From positions 1 to 64,000 of the forward strand of contig JAMPGX010000003.1 in the NCBI GenBank assembly GCA_023663725.1: a stretch of 64,000 bases of DNA. Reading direction: 5' to 3'. Every line of letters starts with the position of its first letter. The first letter of the stretch is position 1. Positions 9,727 through 15,660 of this stretch are shown piece by piece. The notes beneath the pieces are model-generated. The model searched no databases and had not been told where the DNA came from. It saw only the letters and a list, made by a program, of their open reading frames with translations. The DNA is from a bacterium. Lineage in GTDB: Bacteria; Bacillota; Clostridia; Lachnospirales; Lachnospiraceae. A program made the position numbers and the translations under genes.

Positions 9727-9844
9727 TGACACTAATTCTACATCAATTTTCACCCAACTTGACACTAATTCCACATACTCCCAACGAATTTATGCGGTTT
9801 CCCAGACTTTTCCCCTGAAAAAACCTCAAAAAGTTCGTGACACT
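9727..9844. repeat. 117-bp direct repeat, copy 1
   Basis: This stretch recurs almost perfectly at 11798-11914, with one substitution (TTC/TCC) and one T-run indel visible. It begins and ends with TGACACT and contains an internal near-repeat of TTGACACTAATTCCACAT. Repeated TGACACT-type ends recall insertion-sequence termini, but I cannot assign a family. The two copies bracket about 2 kb containing the broken ATPase and the Fic-like gene. Confidence 0.8.
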
Positions 9845-9853
9845 AACTTGACA

Positions 9854-9922
9854 TACGCGGGGTATGGACGACTGAACCTGCGCCGGGTGTTCGACGTGCT
9901 GGCGGGAGTTACGGGAGGATGA
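9854..9922 (+). pseudogene. Short GC-rich coding fragment
   Basis: A 22-codon frame reading YAGYGRLNLRRVFDVLAG and then a TGA. Its GC-rich codons stand out from the AT-rich surroundings. It lies directly after repeat copy 1, so it is probably the scrap end of a gene moved with that repeat. It is too short to name. Confidence 0.3.
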
Positions 9923-10101
9923 GACAACGTGCATTGTTCAGCAATGTTTAGGAAAGAAAATGGTTTTGGTGAAAGAACAGTTTTCATGAGTAAATCATAA
10001 CAGGGCAAGTTCTTTTAGCCCTTATTTATAGATCGCAATATTTGCCCCATGGATAGGAGCTATTTTTATAAAGTTGTAAATTGAAACTCTATTTTTAACA
10101 T

Positions 10102-10147: not shown

Positions 10148-10208
10148 GAAACATGGCTTATAATATAAAAGAGGTTAATTTGTGGGATTTTAAAATGAGG
10201 AGACTACC

Positions 10209-10808
10209 ATGCTGCAATTTCAAGAATTTCAAATCCTTCCGAGATGAGATGTCTCTGGATTTAACAGCGACCAAAATAACGGAGTATGTAGTGGAGGCGG
10301 CTAACGACAAACTGCTGAAAGTGGCAGCGATTTACGGAGCCAATGCGAGCGGTAAGTCAAATGTGCATGACGCATTTGAATATATGGCTATTATGTGGAT
10401 GAATCCTTTATTTTCGGGGATAAAGATGAACGACGCAGGAAAACGGGAGATGCGTATGTGAAAGTAACGCCCTTTCTCTTTGACGAGGAGAGCCGCAATG
10501 AAGAGACCACCTTTGAAGTGTTTTATGTTGACAACACAGAAGATACAGGAAAAACATATCAGTACGGCTTTTCCTTGAAGAATGACGAAGTGGTGGAAGA
10601 GTGGCTGTATTCAAAGGCAAAGACGGCGAGAAATAAGTACAGAACTATTTTTTATAGAAAAAAGGGAGAAGAACTGGAGATGAACGGTTTTTCCAAAAAT
10701 CATGTAGAAAATATCAAGGCATCTCTGAACAAGGAGTCCCTGATCGTGTCTCTGGGAGCAAAATTGCGGATCACAAAGCTGAAAATCAAAGGATTTTATC
10801 TGGTCTGA
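10209..10808 (+). pseudogene. Broken AAA-family ATPase (AAA_15/RloC-like)
   Basis: AGGAG precedes an ATG at 10209, and the frames then give FKNFKSFRDEMSLDL, a Walker A in IYGANASGKSNV, and after a shift PFLFDEESRNEETTFEVF and YQYGFSLKNDEVVEEWLYS. These are the hallmarks of the roughly 400-450 residue AAA ATPases often found in anti-phage and restriction islands. At least two frameshifts are visible: one within the first ten codons (the ATG frame does not reach FKNFKSF) and one near 10400 (IMWMNP versus DESFIFG). Similarity stops near residue 200, so the signature, Walker B and C-terminal effector half are missing. It is not functional. Confidence 0.7.
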
Positions 10809-10895: not shown

Positions 10896-10982
10896 AATTT
10901 CATGTAATATATGGATTTGTTATGTAGCAAATATAGAACTGAGAATTTATAGAATTTGTTTTGTGAGGAAGGGCTTATTGTT

Positions 10983-11687
10983 ATGGATGCGAAATATCAT
11001 ATGACACGGGAAGAAAATATTTTCGTTGCCAAGCGGAATATTGTTGATTATATTTGGAAAAGTGCAAAGTTGGAGGGGCTGGCAGTGACGTATCCTGATA
11101 CGGAGGCAATATATAATGGGATGAGTGTTCAAGGAGTTAAGGTTTCGGACATCATTGCAGTAAATAATTTGAAACATGCATGGCAGTTTGTGTTGGACAC
11201 GCTGGACTATCCCACGGATTATCCTTTTGTCTGTAAAATCAACCAATGTGTGGGCGGCGACAGCCTGATCATCCGGGCCGGATATCTACGCAATGTTCCT
11301 GTCAGCATTGGGGGCACAACATGGAAACCGGACATGCCTATTGAATCGCAGATAAAAGAGGAAATGGCAGAAATTGATCAAATTAGCAATCCCACGGACA
11401 GGGCTCTTACTATGATGCTCTACCTTGTTCGGAAACAGCTGTTTCTAGATGGCAACAAGCGGACATCTATGCTGGCGGGTAATCATATAATGATTTCAAA
11501 CGGGTGTGGTATTATCTCCATTCCAATTGAATTGCAGGCTACTTTTACTAAACTGTTGATTACTTTCTATGAATCTAATGATATGGGGGAGATCAAACAA
11601 TTCCTGTATGAGAATTGTGTTGATGGCATAGAGTTTATGCCTCTTCCGGAACAGGATAGGGGACAGTTGGAAAGTTGGGAGCGGTAA
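10983..11687 (+). CDS. Fic-fold protein with Gln in place of the catalytic His
   Basis: A 234-residue Fic/DOC-family protein. The fold signature is QLFLDGNKRTSML (residues 152-164). The phosphate-binding DGNKR part is intact, but the position of the essential His of HPFx(D/E)GNGR is Gln152. Canonical Fic enzymes transfer AMP or other phosphate groups using that His, so this protein is probably inactive as an AMPylator or uses another chemistry; I recall a Fic subgroup with this change. The start at 10983 is chosen for the AGGAAGG upstream; the frame is open to a TTG at 10956. It stands alone between the broken ATPase and repeat copy 2 with its own promoter. No partner antitoxin gene is seen. 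Confidence 0.8.
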   Translation: MDAKYHMTREENIFVAKRNIVDYIWKSAKLEGLAVTYPDTEAIYNGMSVQGVKVSDIIAVNNLKHAWQFVLDTLDYPTDYPFVCKINQCVGGDSLIIRAGYLRNVPVSIGGTTWKPDMPIESQIKEEMAEIDQISNPTDRALTMMLYLVRKQLFLDGNKRTSMLAGNHIMISNGCGIISIPIELQATFTKLLITFYESNDMGEIKQFLYENCVDGIEFMPLPEQDRGQLESWER

Positions 11688-11797
11688 AACAGAATGCAAC
11701 CGATTCTTTATTGGTGTAACGACATCATTTCAAGGCTTAGAGAGCGGAGTAGTTATCATCTGTCTTGCTTTATATTCCATCTCTTGGCTAAATTACT

Positions 11798-11914
11798 TGA
11801 CACTAATCCTACATCAATTTTCACCCAACTTGACACTAATTCCACATACTCCCAACGAATTTATGCGGTTTCCCAGACTTTCCCCTGAAAAAACCTCAAA
11901 AAGTTCGTGACACT
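11798..11914. repeat. 117-bp direct repeat, copy 2
   Basis: Near-identical to 9727-9844 and in the same orientation. The boundaries are TGACACT at both ends. The bases outside the repeat differ between the copies, which fixes the repeat length. It lies 110 bases after the Fic-like gene. Confidence 0.8.
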
Positions 11915-12210: not shown

Positions 12211-12509
12211 TATGGTATTACACATCCTCCAGCGGCTTGGGAAAGGATAAAATATACATAAGTTGATTGCGGAACTTTCCCCACAAGTGACGGAATTGGC
12301 CAATATAGACAAGATGGACGTCAGCCCCGTCCTTACCGCAAACAGGGAAAAGAGATCAGAAATCCCTTTTCCCTGTTATGATATTGCTTCCCTTTTACAC
12401 TTTTTCTCCGTGATACCTTTTAAGCTGCTGTCCAAACCAGCTCGAAAAACCTTCGGAGAATTCTTTTTTGTAACTACATACACAGTATATCCCTTCTACA
12501 AAATATCTG
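12211..12509. other. Non-coding stretch with an inverted repeat
   Basis: No gene can be supported here. AACAGGGAAAAG (12341-12352) pairs perfectly with CTTTTCCCTGTT (12366-12377) over a 13-base loop. No clear T-tract follows on either strand. The core CAGGGA resembles the CAAGGGACAG arm of the operator-like repeat at 12510, which may be coincidence. Confidence 0.4.
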
Positions 12510-12563
12510 CAAGGGACAGAATTGTTGACAAAAAAGGTGAATTGTAAACAACTCTGTCCCTTG
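12510..12563. promoter_or_regulatory. Long inverted repeat overlapping the peptide promoter (candidate operator)
   Basis: The arm CAAGGGACAGAATTGTT (12510-12526) matches the reverse complement of 12547-12563 at 16 of 17 positions. The arms are centred 37 bp apart, about 3.5 helical turns. The right arm ends inside the -35 element of the promoter for the 53-codon peptide. It could be an operator for the HTH regulator encoded next door, or a terminator-like RNA hairpin (TTTT follows). Confidence 0.5.
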
Positions 12564-12589
12564 TTTTGGCTGATGTCTTTCAATATAAT
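12561..12589 (+). promoter_or_regulatory. Promoter of the small exported peptide
   Basis: TTGTTT (12561-12566), 17-base spacer, perfect TATAAT (12584-12589), 35 bases before the start codon. Its -35 overlaps the right arm of the long inverted repeat. Confidence 0.65.
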
Positions 12590-12624
12590 TAATATATTAT
12601 TGAAAAACAGGAGGCTATCTCAAA

Positions 12625-12786
12625 ATGGGAAAACATTCATTCAAACAGTTACTTCGTTCCACTGCCGTTATCTTGGCATTTTTAGCAGTCCTTGTCGATC
12701 TCCTTATGGGGGGAGCTAATTTCGACAAAACAGGAGGTGTCGCTCCCCTGAACGATAAGGAGCCATATGACTATACTTACAATTAA
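12625..12786 (+). CDS. Small exported-peptide precursor, candidate signalling peptide
   Basis: A 53-residue ORF with AGGAGG 10 bases upstream and a well-formed promoter. The start MGKHSFKQLLRS is basic. Residues 13-31 are strongly hydrophobic (TAVILAFLAVLVDLLMGGA), as in a signal peptide or small membrane anchor. The tail is polar and ends EPYDYTYN. There is no double-glycine plus Cys pattern, so it is not an obvious bacteriocin or AgrD. The stop is 4 bases from the end of a convergent gene encoding a large HTH/TPR-like regulator. Small exported peptides beside such regulators are the pattern of RRNPP quorum sensing (Rgg, PlcR, Rap, ComR). Function here is inferred from context only. Confidence 0.6.
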   Translation: MGKHSFKQLLRSTAVILAFLAVLVDLLMGGANFDKTGGVAPLNDKEPYDYTYN

Positions 12787-12790
12787 TGTC

Positions 12791-14695
12791 CTACTTAGTG
12801 CCTGTTTGCTCTAACATTTTTCGGAAAAAGGTTTCATTATTTTTCTGTTTGTCAAGCCTGCTGAGCAACAAGCATTTATACAATTCTTTCTTCTCATCCA
12901 GAGAGAGACTTGTCGGTATGCTCCTGCGTCTCCGCTCCGCGTGATTCCAGCACCGATTATACAGGCTGTTGCTAAGCTCGCCCAGTCTGCGGAACCGCAG
13001 GCATCCCGTGGTGGTGATGTCAGAGTATTGGTCAGAACGGTCGAATTCGCCCTTATTTCCCAGCTCACTTGCAACCAGATTCATAATCAAGTTATATATT
13101 CCTGCATACGCACCCTGCAGCTCGCTGTCTATGATGGGGCGGTACATATCCTCAAAGCGTTCTATCGCTGTCCAAAATTCTGCACTGTCTCTGTCCATTC
13201 CCTGTAGCATACTGTGGATACAGGACTGCTCCTGATAAGTCAGATATTTTTCTCCCTCTTTCAGAAAAGCTTCAAATGGGAGCGTCAACTCCAATACCTC
13301 GCGCATTGCCCGGCAAAACGCATCGCTTTCCATTTCTCTGTTTTTCCAACGGCTGAGCACATTTTCTCTCATCAAAGTCTGCTTGTTGTGGGGAAAATCC
13401 ATGGAGACCCGCAGCTCAAGTTCATTGAACAGTTCCGCGGCCTGTTCCCATTGCATATCATTTACCAGCCTCCGTATCTGTTCCATCAGCTCCTTGGCCT
13501 CTGGGTCGTCCGTGATCAGTTCCGTGCGGGTGAGCTCCCCGGAGAGTCCCAGGCGCGCAAACAGCTCCTCGACGATTGCCCGCTGGGGTATTGTTGTGCG
13601 GCGTTCCAGACGCCGCAGGGTCTTGACGTCACAGATGCCTTCACACAGCTCGCCCGGCGTCATCCCCAGCATCATACGCCGGATACGGATGACGTCGTTG
13701 ATGCAATATACCCCATGCATCACATAGAGATAACAGTATTCAAAGGTCTCCTTCGGCACCTGATATTCCCTATAGAGCTGTTCCAATACTGTTTTCCATT
13801 CCGCGTTTTCTGACTGTGTTGCGCGCAGAGCGTCGGCTTTCTCCGGCTCTCCCTGGTGGCGATAGCTTCCCGCCAGCTGTTCCAGGAGTAGCCCGCGTAT
13901 ATCCAGAAGCTCCCAGAGGAAGTACATCCGATAGTTATCCCGCAGGATGTCCACGGCGCGGTTGCAGAGCTTAAGGAGTTCCTCCGACTCCGAGAGGGAT
14001 AACGGACTTCCCATGGCTGCCGCCAAACGCTCCCGACAGAGGAAGAAGACAGCCTTGGGATAGATCTTGGCCATGCCGCGCCCGTCCAGGCCGACTCCCT
14101 CTATGTATGTCAGGATTTCTTCATATTGCGAGAGCCGTGCTTCCTCCCCACGGTACTGCTCAATCTCCAGGAGCAGATTCAGTTCTTTGATGGAAAGCAC
14201 CAGGTGGGAGAGCGGTTTGTGTTCCAATGCAGGCACGGTCAGACGGAGCGCCTCATCAAACAGGGCGCGCAGCTCATCGCCGGAAGCACCCTCATAGCTT
14301 CGGATCTGCGCCAGCATACTCAGATAGAACTGTCTCTCCAGCTTCTCTTCTATGGTGGAATTTCCTTTCCCATATCCGGCGTAGTATTCTTCCAACAATC
14401 TTTTTGCCCGCTCTGTCTCCTCCCACGTGATACAGTGGAGGATCCTCTGACGGGCCTCCCAGCGTCCATATTCCGCATAGCTGAGAAAGTGCTCATAATC
14501 CTCCGCGCCTACGCCCAGCCTCTCCACGATGACGTCCTGCAGTAGCTTGCTTGGTAGCCGCTGACCGTTCTCCAGGAAAGAGATCTCCTGAGAAGTACAC
14601 AGCCCCTCACAGATCTGCCTCATGGAAATGTCGCGTTTTCTGCGCATTCTGGCAATATACATATTGAATTGCCTGCTTTCCAAACTATCCATCAT
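12791..14695 (-). CDS. Large double-HTH, TPR-like transcriptional regulator (RRNPP-type candidate)
   Basis: A 634-residue protein. An XRE-type HTH occupies residues about 12-72 (MRRKRDISMRQICEGL, SQEISFLENGQRLPS). A second HTH-like unit lies at about 333-393 (IRRMMLGMTPGELCEGI, VKTLRRLERRTTIPQ). Each is followed by helical segments of TPR type (LFDEALRLTVPALEHKPLS; AELFNELELRVSM), so the protein reads as a tandem duplication of an HTH-TPR module. The start has AGAGGA six bases upstream. RRNPP proteins use a C-terminal TPR domain to bind a re-imported peptide; most are 280-320 residues with one HTH, so the doubled form is unusual. The convergent small peptide gene is the likely ligand source. 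No oligopeptide permease is in the window. Confidence 0.7.
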   Translation of the reverse strand: MMDSLESRQFNMYIARMRRKRDISMRQICEGLCTSQEISFLENGQRLPSKLLQDVIVERLGVGAEDYEHFLSYAEYGRWEARQRILHCITWEETERAKRLLEEYYAGYGKGNSTIEEKLERQFYLSMLAQIRSYEGASGDELRALFDEALRLTVPALEHKPLSHLVLSIKELNLLLEIEQYRGEEARLSQYEEILTYIEGVGLDGRGMAKIYPKAVFFLCRERLAAAMGSPLSLSESEELLKLCNRAVDILRDNYRMYFLWELLDIRGLLLEQLAGSYRHQGEPEKADALRATQSENAEWKTVLEQLYREYQVPKETFEYCYLYVMHGVYCINDVIRIRRMMLGMTPGELCEGICDVKTLRRLERRTTIPQRAIVEELFARLGLSGELTRTELITDDPEAKELMEQIRRLVNDMQWEQAAELFNELELRVSMDFPHNKQTLMRENVLSRWKNREMESDAFCRAMREVLELTLPFEAFLKEGEKYLTYQEQSCIHSMLQGMDRDSAEFWTAIERFEDMYRPIIDSELQGAYAGIYNLIMNLVASELGNKGEFDRSDQYSDITTTGCLRFRRLGELSNSLYNRCWNHAERRRRSIPTSLSLDEKKELYKCLLLSRLDKQKNNETFFRKMLEQTGTK

Positions 14696-14790: not shown

Positions 14791-15660
14791 TCAGTCAGCC
14801 ATAAGTTTTCTTTTTACAGGCAGCCAGATTTCCACAATGGATTCATCACTGCTCTCATCAAATCGTGCATCATAATGTTCGATGCAATACAGTTTTCCTT
14901 CCCACAAATTCCTGACATATCCCTTTTCATTGGAGACCAGCCACTCCTCCATGGCGTTGTTTTCGCTTTCATACCCTTCCTTCACATACACGTCAAAGGA
15001 AGCATACTCGGAAGAGGGAATTTGAAAGATTTCATATTCGCCGCAGCTGTCGCAGTCGCTATTTATTTCACAGCCGACAAATACGCTTTCTTTCTCCGTC
15101 TTACTGTCAAAGATGCGGACTTCATAGCTGTCATCCGACAATTTGTCTGTGAGAGGGGTGTCCTCATAAAGCTTCATAAAACGCTTCCATATTTCCGCCG
15201 TTTCTGTACCGGCGCCCGATACTCCAGCCAAAATCATTTTATCCCTTTTTATCATGCCAGGGTTCATTACAATACCTCCTTTTAATCTGTTGGTAAACTG
15301 CTTTACAAGCTCAGACGCAGGCACGATGCACGGCACTATTTGCCTGGCACGGTACTCCGTAGGGGACATTTCTGTAATCGACTTAAAAGCTCTGGAAAAA
15401 CTCTGCGCGGAGTCAAATCCCAAATCGAGCGCAATGTCCAACACCTTTCGGTCCGTTTCATTCAGCATCTTGCAAGCATAGGCAATCCGTCTGTCGCGAA
15501 CATAAGCAATCATAGATTTACCGACAATAGATGTAAACAACCTGTGAAAATAATAGGGAGAAAAAGCGAATTGTTCCGCAATCAATTGCACGGATAACGT
15601 CTCATTGAGATGAGCATCAATATATTTGATTGCCTCGCTGATTTTGTGAAAATTGTTCAT
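14791..15660 (-). CDS. AraC-family regulator with GyrI-like effector domain
   Basis: A 289-residue Rob/SoxS-type protein. The AraC DNA-binding domain is at residues 1-105: first helix-turn-helix SVQLIAEQFAFSPYYFHRLF, second VLDIALDLGFDSAQSFSRAF, ending SPTEYRARQ. The C-terminal half (about 130-289) resembles the GyrI-like/bacterial effector-binding domain (YEVRIFDSKTEKESVFVG, YASFDVYVKEGYES, VEIWLPVKR), which binds small amphipathic ligands. The start is at 15660. A perfect 12-bp palindrome lies 24 bases upstream and could be its own operator. The target is not evident; the divergent gene at 15875 is a candidate. Confidence 0.85.
   Translation of the reverse strand: MNNFHKISEAIKYIDAHLNETLSVQLIAEQFAFSPYYFHRLFTSIVGKSMIAYVRDRRIAYACKMLNETDRKVLDIALDLGFDSAQSFSRAFKSITEMSPTEYRARQIVPCIVPASELVKQFTNRLKGGIVMNPGMIKRDKMILAGVSGAGTETAEIWKRFMKLYEDTPLTDKLSDDSYEVRIFDSKTEKESVFVGCEINSDCDSCGEYEIFQIPSSEYASFDVYVKEGYESENNAMEEWLVSNEKGYVRNLWEGKLYCIEHYDARFDESSDESIVEIWLPVKRKLMAD

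Follow-up and report, generated by a model that had tools for sequence, protein, structure and literature searches.

The 64,000-nucleotide stretch of DNA analysed here (contig JAMPGX010000003.1 of a Lachnospiraceae genome, positions 1 to 64,000; 'the window') carries at 12510-14695 a small gene for a 53-residue peptide, which converges on the gene for a 634-residue regulator with two helix-turn-helix (HTH) and tetratricopeptide repeat (TPR) modules and is preceded by a long inverted repeat. We consider it quite probable that this locus is a peptide quorum-sensing module of the RRNPP type, the receptor of which would be a tandem-duplicated and fused PlcR-like HTH-TPR protein. Receptors of this type sense small exported peptides that are encoded adjacent to them (PMC10075063; PMC12700828). 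Because many distant versions of the sensor also have a peptide gene of this kind next to them, the module looks like one member of a real, little-noticed family of bacterial signalling systems. The features of the locus are as follows.

12510-12531, no strand: left arm of the presumed operator (CAAGGGACAGAATTGTTGACAA), from the repeat search; a similar arm lies before the peptide of locus L104
12542-12563, no strand: right arm of the presumed operator (TTGTAAACAACTCTGTCCCTTG), sharing three bases with the -35 hexamer; kept before the peptide of contig C3
12561-12566, + strand: -35 hexamer TTGTTT of the peptide promoter, read from the sequence
12584-12589, + strand: -10 hexamer TATAAT of the peptide promoter, read from the sequence; TATAAT in the C3 paralogue too
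12609-12614, + strand: ribosome-binding site AGGAGG, read from the sequence; AGGAGG in the C3 paralogue too
12625-12786, + strand: presumed signal propeptide of 53 residues with basic start, hydrophobic segment and polar tail GGVAPLNDKEPYDYTYN; C3 paralogue; family-wide position test
12791-13741, - strand: C-terminal HTH-TPR module of the regulator (residues 319-634 and stop codon); HTH_31 at residues 336-390; PlcR match
13742-14695, - strand: N-terminal HTH-TPR module of the regulator (residues 1-318); HTH_3 at residues 14-50; homology to the C-terminal half

An earlier note on this DNA had described a small open reading frame (ORF) with AGGAGG, a TTGTTT and TATAAT promoter with a 17-base spacer, a hydrophobic segment and a tail ending in EPYDYTYN, and all of these were located in the window. 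The coordinates also agree with its statement that the 53-mer ends four bases from a convergent 634-residue protein (12791-14695, - strand), so that an adjacent propeptide of between 10 and 100 residues is present. The start of the 53-mer consists of basic residues and a hydrophobic 12-mer, as judged by hydropathy alone. Its NCBIfam matches, to SecE and one other family, fall far under cut-off.

Two HTH stretches are recognised in the regulator by Pfam, with HTH_3 and HTH_31 the best matches to the first and second respectively, and in an alignment of 24 family members the two halves of the protein are homologous (hhalign, 99.9%, E 2.5e-34). This bears out the two HTH/TPR-like modules of the earlier note. 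Among solved structures the C-terminal half of the 24-relative profile matches PlcR (2qfc, chain residues 10-286, E 3.3e-20), and an HTH followed by a TPR domain homologous to known RRNPP members is therefore found here. Other HTH proteins also match the family profile, weakly, in part and behind PlcR, and the TPR part has weaker, partial matches to kinesin light chains and other TPR proteins (E down to 1.6e-10). Structure entries listed only as 'Transcriptional regulator', which we take to be Rgg, match approximately the first 110 profile positions. Since the halves are homologous and the profile matches PlcR, the regulator is a fused tandem of two PlcR-like HTH-TPR modules.

Relatives of the regulator at E 1e-10 or better were found in 32 of 397 genomes from the family of the window organism, and profile searches found them in 32 of 392 genomes of the order at E 1e-40 and in 3 of 299 genomes of the phylum at E 1e-30, the organism's own genome being counted in each case. 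In viral contigs 16 pattern matches were obtained and none was confirmed as a relative. Most likely the module is part of a wider family in the same bacterial order. A strict rule was used to score peptide genes at these loci (given L numbers below): an ORF of at most 110 residues on the opposite strand, its stop at -75 to +20 from the regulator stop, with a ribosome-site-like sequence and, near its start, K or R followed by a hydrophobic 12-mer. Such a gene accompanies 39 of 52 double regulators as against 2 of 178 control genes taken from the same fetched loci, and this confirms that the arrangement in the window is real and above chance. The stop of the peptide gene lies at -7 to +11 bases from that of the regulator in 34 of the 39 and at exactly -4 in 12; one passing locus (L019) is doubtful, and two that fail (L024, L130) do so for the ribosome-site match only. 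Eighteen of the 24 double regulators known before the pattern was noticed pass the rule, as do 21 of the 28 collected later. When the rule was loosened (no ribosome site, wider range) a peptide gene was scored for 57 of 85 regulators, all kinds taken together, and for 31 of 174 controls. Fisher values of 2e-30 for the pairing and 4e-7 for the divergent neighbours described below are not true probabilities, since the loci counted share ancestry. When the 53-mer by itself was used to search 101 genomes of the genus, it gave, apart from its two copies in this genome, weak matches in 53 other genomes (best E 0.005), mostly to parts of much longer reading frames. A small exported-looking ORF, the recurrence of which the earlier note's reading would require, is thus seen beside 39 of 52 double-length relatives and in a diverged copy in the same genome, and these two observations lend support to the peptide-signalling reading proposed earlier.

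Single-module relatives of approximately 310 residues also occur. Most of them fail the strict rule: outside the 52 double regulators it is passed by 6 of 19 single or second-of-pair C-type, 1 of 11 N-type and 0 of 5 other regulators. L089 and L096 pass; at L087 and L088 the looser rule finds a signal-like ORF that converges on the regulator gene at a distance of 42 and 54 bases; and in all four a gene judged by eye to be secreted or radical-SAM-like lies past the peptide. Two single-module genes are adjacent at L027, L031, L084, L094 and L137, with L027 and L084 passing the rule. We infer that the fused double receptor (approximately 590-690 residues in the family) arose by tandem duplication; the family offers a natural series, with single receptors at one end, fused double receptors at the other and adjacent pairs in between. 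At L105 (5151-9347) two double regulators stand in direct tandem, with a convergent peptide gene only after the second.

The genome from which the window comes holds a second copy of the module. A 639-residue regulator on contig C3, 75% identical to that of the window, is met by a convergent 53-mer (MGKQSFKPLLRSAAIILAFIAVLIDLLFGGTDFAPEGGIAPMNDLDVRDDLYD; gene G000:C3:18022-18177) three bases from its stop. The two 53-mers are 60% identical over their full length (62% over 52 residues), with 23 of 30 residues identical in the leader and 9 of 23 in the tail. The upstream repeat is 78% identical over 63 query bases, with 11 bases between the arms (10 in the window) and 60 bases to the ATG (61 in the window), yet the C3 arms pair at only 15 of 22 positions as compared with 20 of 22. 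That pairing is worse while sequence and ATG spacing are kept speaks for these operators being a protein site rather than a hairpin. No copies of the window repeat core beyond these two sites were found in the genome. Divergent genes at C3 encode a 100-residue secreted-like protein and a solute-binding protein. Contig C46 (L005) encodes a third, distant double regulator, for which no convergent peptide was found; it is followed by genes for an 88-residue secreted-like protein and an 813-residue solute-binding protein, and a long inverted repeat (L005:3441-3486) lies right after its stop. A related locus in a Lachnospiraceae metagenome-assembled genome (L067:5995-7668) encodes a regulator that is 69% identical over 506 residues with a changed C-terminus. 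No peptide gene was seen beside it, and the next gene (L067:7556-8998) encodes a solute-binding protein that shares 57% identity with its counterpart beside the C3 module, the picture that a deletion would leave.

Tails were compared across the family using 48 peptides, which include L024 and L130 (no ribosome site) and seven from single, paired or split regulators; removal of the near-duplicate or doubtful L132, L136, L133 and L019 left 44. The propeptides are 43-76 residues long with a signal-like start and a polar tail, and the 44 tails have a median length of 33 residues with 18% D+E and 4% K+R. Within the window's own clade the tails have G-[IV]-x-[PT]-x-[NS]-D in common (GVAPLND, GIAPMND, GIAPLSD, GIQPQND, GISTYSD, with the variant QVSTYSD at L106). 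The pattern [IV].[PTV].[NS]D is present in 9 of the 44 tails, where shuffling gives an expectation of 0.6 and a maximum of 4 in 1000 shuffles; this motif was picked once the tails had been inspected, and L108, one of the nine, may have it by chance.

The inverted repeat of the window has arms of 22 nucleotides, complementary at 20 of 22 positions and 10 nucleotides apart, and ends on the -35 box. The earlier note had reported 17-bp arms 37 bp apart overlapping the promoter; the overlap holds (three bases of the -35 hexamer), and its figures agree with the outermost 17 bases in either arm, the distance being taken from the start of one to the start of the other. Scanning of the 200 bases before the peptide start (score at least 29) found a long inverted repeat before 24 of 40 peptides, these regions including two from regulators split by a stop (L107, L108), and before 11 of 142 other genes. 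Of these 11, three come from duplicate loci (L010, L078, L079) and are the same operators over again. The repeat is centred at -150 to -40 in 21 of the 24 peptides and in 8 of the 11 controls. It occurs in 3 of 55 upstream regions of the regulators themselves, before 9 of 14 genes that share an upstream region with a peptide (counted apart), and before 4 of 5 peptides of single or paired regulators. Set against shuffled sequence, 33 of 42 regions exceed all 12 shuffles.

The arms themselves vary with the regulators. At L104, whose regulator shares 36% identity with the window regulator, the arm CAAGGGACAGAGTTGTCAAA is close to CAAGGGACAGAATTGTTGACAA, and other branches of the family have CCATGAC...GGAAA-like arms. 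Across 24 selected loci with z of at least 7.5 (L084, a split pair, L132, a near-duplicate, and 16 weaker loci being left out) arm similarity follows the regulator tree (Spearman -0.41, 0 of 2000 permutations). Binding of the regulator to the window repeat, as the earlier note proposed, is supported as a prediction because the repeat is conserved and arm similarity correlates with the tree. Long inverted repeats at the single-module L089 and L096 weaken the notion that doubling of the regulator calls for doubling of the operator. Repeats were also seen, with no control run, at orphan double regulators (those without a peptide gene): at L005, L117, L120 and L139 no more than 70 bases after the regulator's own stop and before a same-strand gene, at L113 near the start of the downstream gene, and at L128 across its own 3' end. 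Among the nine orphans scanned (L028 being left out), no long repeat was found after the stop at L118, L134 and L138.

The genes beyond the peptide may include further targets. In 25 of 31 loci the gene that comes next after the peptide is divergent from it (8 of the 39 were left out as having no gene within 1 kb), as compared with 24 of 86 upstream neighbours lying 90-1000 bases from other genes at the same loci, and 9 of the 25 start like secreted proteins. A Pfam scan of 30 neighbour proteins chosen by eye, 12 of which gave no match, identified solute-binding proteins at C3, C46 and L109, radical-SAM enzymes at L122, L127, L129, L133 and L117, and ABC transporters at L127 and L133; GH43, Big_2, EAL, LytTR and glycosyl transferase were each identified once. 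The radical-SAM genes, with the ABC transporters at L127 and L133, suggest operons like those for ribosomally synthesised and post-translationally modified peptides under the control of double regulators.

A mechanism can be proposed on this basis. The 53-mer would be exported and trimmed outside the cell, and a tail peptide from within GGVAPLNDKEPYDYTYN would re-enter via an oligopeptide permease and bind to the regulator's TPR part. With the peptide in place, the regulator would then bind the long inverted repeat that directly precedes the -35 box and switch on the peptide gene, giving positive feedback; in many relatives it may also switch on a divergent operon with secreted, lipoprotein or radical-SAM products. 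Opp-type binding proteins (PF00496) score over cut-off in the genome, a match that does not give specificity; since they are common in control genomes (11 of 14), their presence only permits uptake. The window and C3 modules have different tails and similar operators. It is conceivable, if rather doubtful, that these double proteins make up a class of their own among RRNPP receptors, probably belonging to the Lachnospirales and having two peptide pockets and two DNA-binding domains per chain. One molecule could then read its own and the paralogous peptide and would gate a long shared operator in the manner of a covalent pseudo-heterodimer, and the two modules here would be a cross-talking pair.

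Other explanations of the locus have been weighed. The small protein might be a regulated secreted or membrane effector rather than a signal, with the regulator sensing some other ligand. The neighbouring genes are partly secreted proteins and lipoproteins themselves, some peptide-less double regulators sit directly before genes of this kind, and ComR, a TPR receptor of the same superfamily, can respond to non-peptide metabolites (PMC12998947), a finding that also counts against peptide sensing here. RRNPP receptors, however, sense the peptide encoded next door (PMC10075063; PMC12700828), 39 of 52 loci have the peptide at the receptor's 3' end while neighbour genes vary, and divergence is faster in the tail than in the leader, which a signal code would lead one to expect, so that we regard an effector as unlikely. 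Very improbable is a small hydrophobic toxin of the type I toxin-antitoxin kind, under antisense control by convergent transcription. A small hydrophobic protein with a polar tail and tail-to-tail genes would fit such a system, but the pairing with PlcR-like receptors holds down to approximately 20% identity, the polar tails are long and the 53-mer has its own promoter with a conserved repeat. We give equally little credence to the repeat being a hairpin terminator or RNA signal instead of an operator; the arms are perfect or near-perfect at many loci and T-rich bases follow the right arm in the window, yet the repeat sits upstream of the -35 box, its arm sequence follows the regulator tree and the C3 copy has kept sequence and spacing at the expense of pairing.

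Several observations weigh against the quorum-sensing reading itself. Eleven of the 52 double regulators lack a 3' peptide even without the ribosome-site condition; L105 among them is the first of tandem regulators of which the second member has a peptide, and ten are apparent orphans (L005, L028, L113, L117, L118, L120, L128, L134, L138, L139). The C3 region tops its shuffles only with a short, different repeat, its similarity to the window repeat being missed by the scan, and L103, of the same clade, and others do not stand out. L110, also of this clade, is without the clade tail motif, and a family-wide search for tail motifs gave results just modestly above shuffles. Over nine peptide pairs the ratio of non-synonymous to synonymous divergence (dN/dS) runs from well below 1 to approximately 1 or above (L017/L018, L122/L133, L123/L125), and codon-position differences over five pairs were 88, 67 and 103 (chi-square p 0.02). 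Between the window and C3, dN is 0.29 and dS 0.50 in the peptide (ratio 0.58) and 0.15 and 0.69 in the regulator. The contrast between synonymous and non-synonymous changes on which the earlier note would have the ORF judged is thus there in weak form; purifying selection on the 53-mer appears to be weak, as may be if the tail changes its code, and is no proof of coding. A structure model of the window regulator, made with one relative (L067), was unusable (mean predicted local distance difference test score 46.7), and no obvious divergent target lies beside the window copy. Export route, processing, uptake, binding, sign of regulation and targets are what we infer.

Other features lie around the module. 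A strong terminator-like hairpin (12341-12377; 16-nucleotide arms, 94%, 5-nucleotide loop) is found upstream of the peptide operator, and directly upstream of the double regulator gene is that of an AraC-type regulator with a Cass2/GyrI-like effector domain (14791-15660, - strand). A Fic/DOC-family domain protein is encoded at 10956-11687 (+ strand), ahead of which the overlapping ORFs 10153-10461 and 10395-10808 appear by eye to be pieces of an ATPase gene in different frames. Similar translated stretches, as judged from ORF translations only, occur at approximately 9743-9934 and 11789-11888 of the window and at L067 9473-9688, which suggests a repeated intergenic element in this genome group.

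Lachnospiraceae are major gut commensals. The occurrence of a family of receptor, peptide and repeat in many of these genomes would provide concrete candidates for signals, operators and neighbouring operons. An RRNPP quorum-sensing system described for Lachnospiraceae was not found in open-licence PMC papers; the extracts of PMC10626739 and PMC7876071, which mention PlcR together with Lachnospiraceae, name no such system in the family, and 'Lachnospir' has 0 occurrences in the main texts of PMC10075063, PMC12700828 and PMC9765709.

The PlcR-PapR system of the Bacillus cereus group, itself RRNPP, resembles the present module in its HTH and TPR receptor, with profile similarity over the length of PlcR, and in the small exported propeptide gene adjoining the receptor gene. 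It differs in that PlcR has one module per chain (a 293-residue chain) where two are found here, and in that the peptide gene is here convergent. The PlcR box is short, and the inverted repeat here is much longer. In group III Rgg/SHP (short hydrophobic peptide) systems of streptococci the peptide gene is convergent with the receptor gene and overlaps its end (PMC13361665), comparable with the four-base gap in the window, and the convergent layout, which the earlier note had listed as a difference from Rgg/SHP, is therefore no distinction. The SHPs are rich in hydrophobic residues, unlike the longer, polar-tailed propeptides of this family, and the receptor here is doubled with PlcR and not Rgg as its best structural relative; the locus does not combine an Rgg-subfamily receptor with a short hydrophobic peptide. 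Divergent leaderless peptides have also been described (PMC10518010). The RRNPPA subfamilies obtained with RRNPP_detector (PMC10075063), from which the FoldTree study takes its candidate subfamilies (PMC12700828), likewise consist of adjacent genes for receptor and exported propeptide. The default receptor size of that detector is 250-500 residues, a search rule rather than a biological requirement; each module of the 634-residue regulator would fit it alone, and the double receptors of this family fall outside because they exceed 500 residues. The convergent layout is thus already known from Rgg/SHP group III, and in the descriptions compared the fused, duplicated PlcR-like receptor differs from the receptors described, as the earlier note had held.

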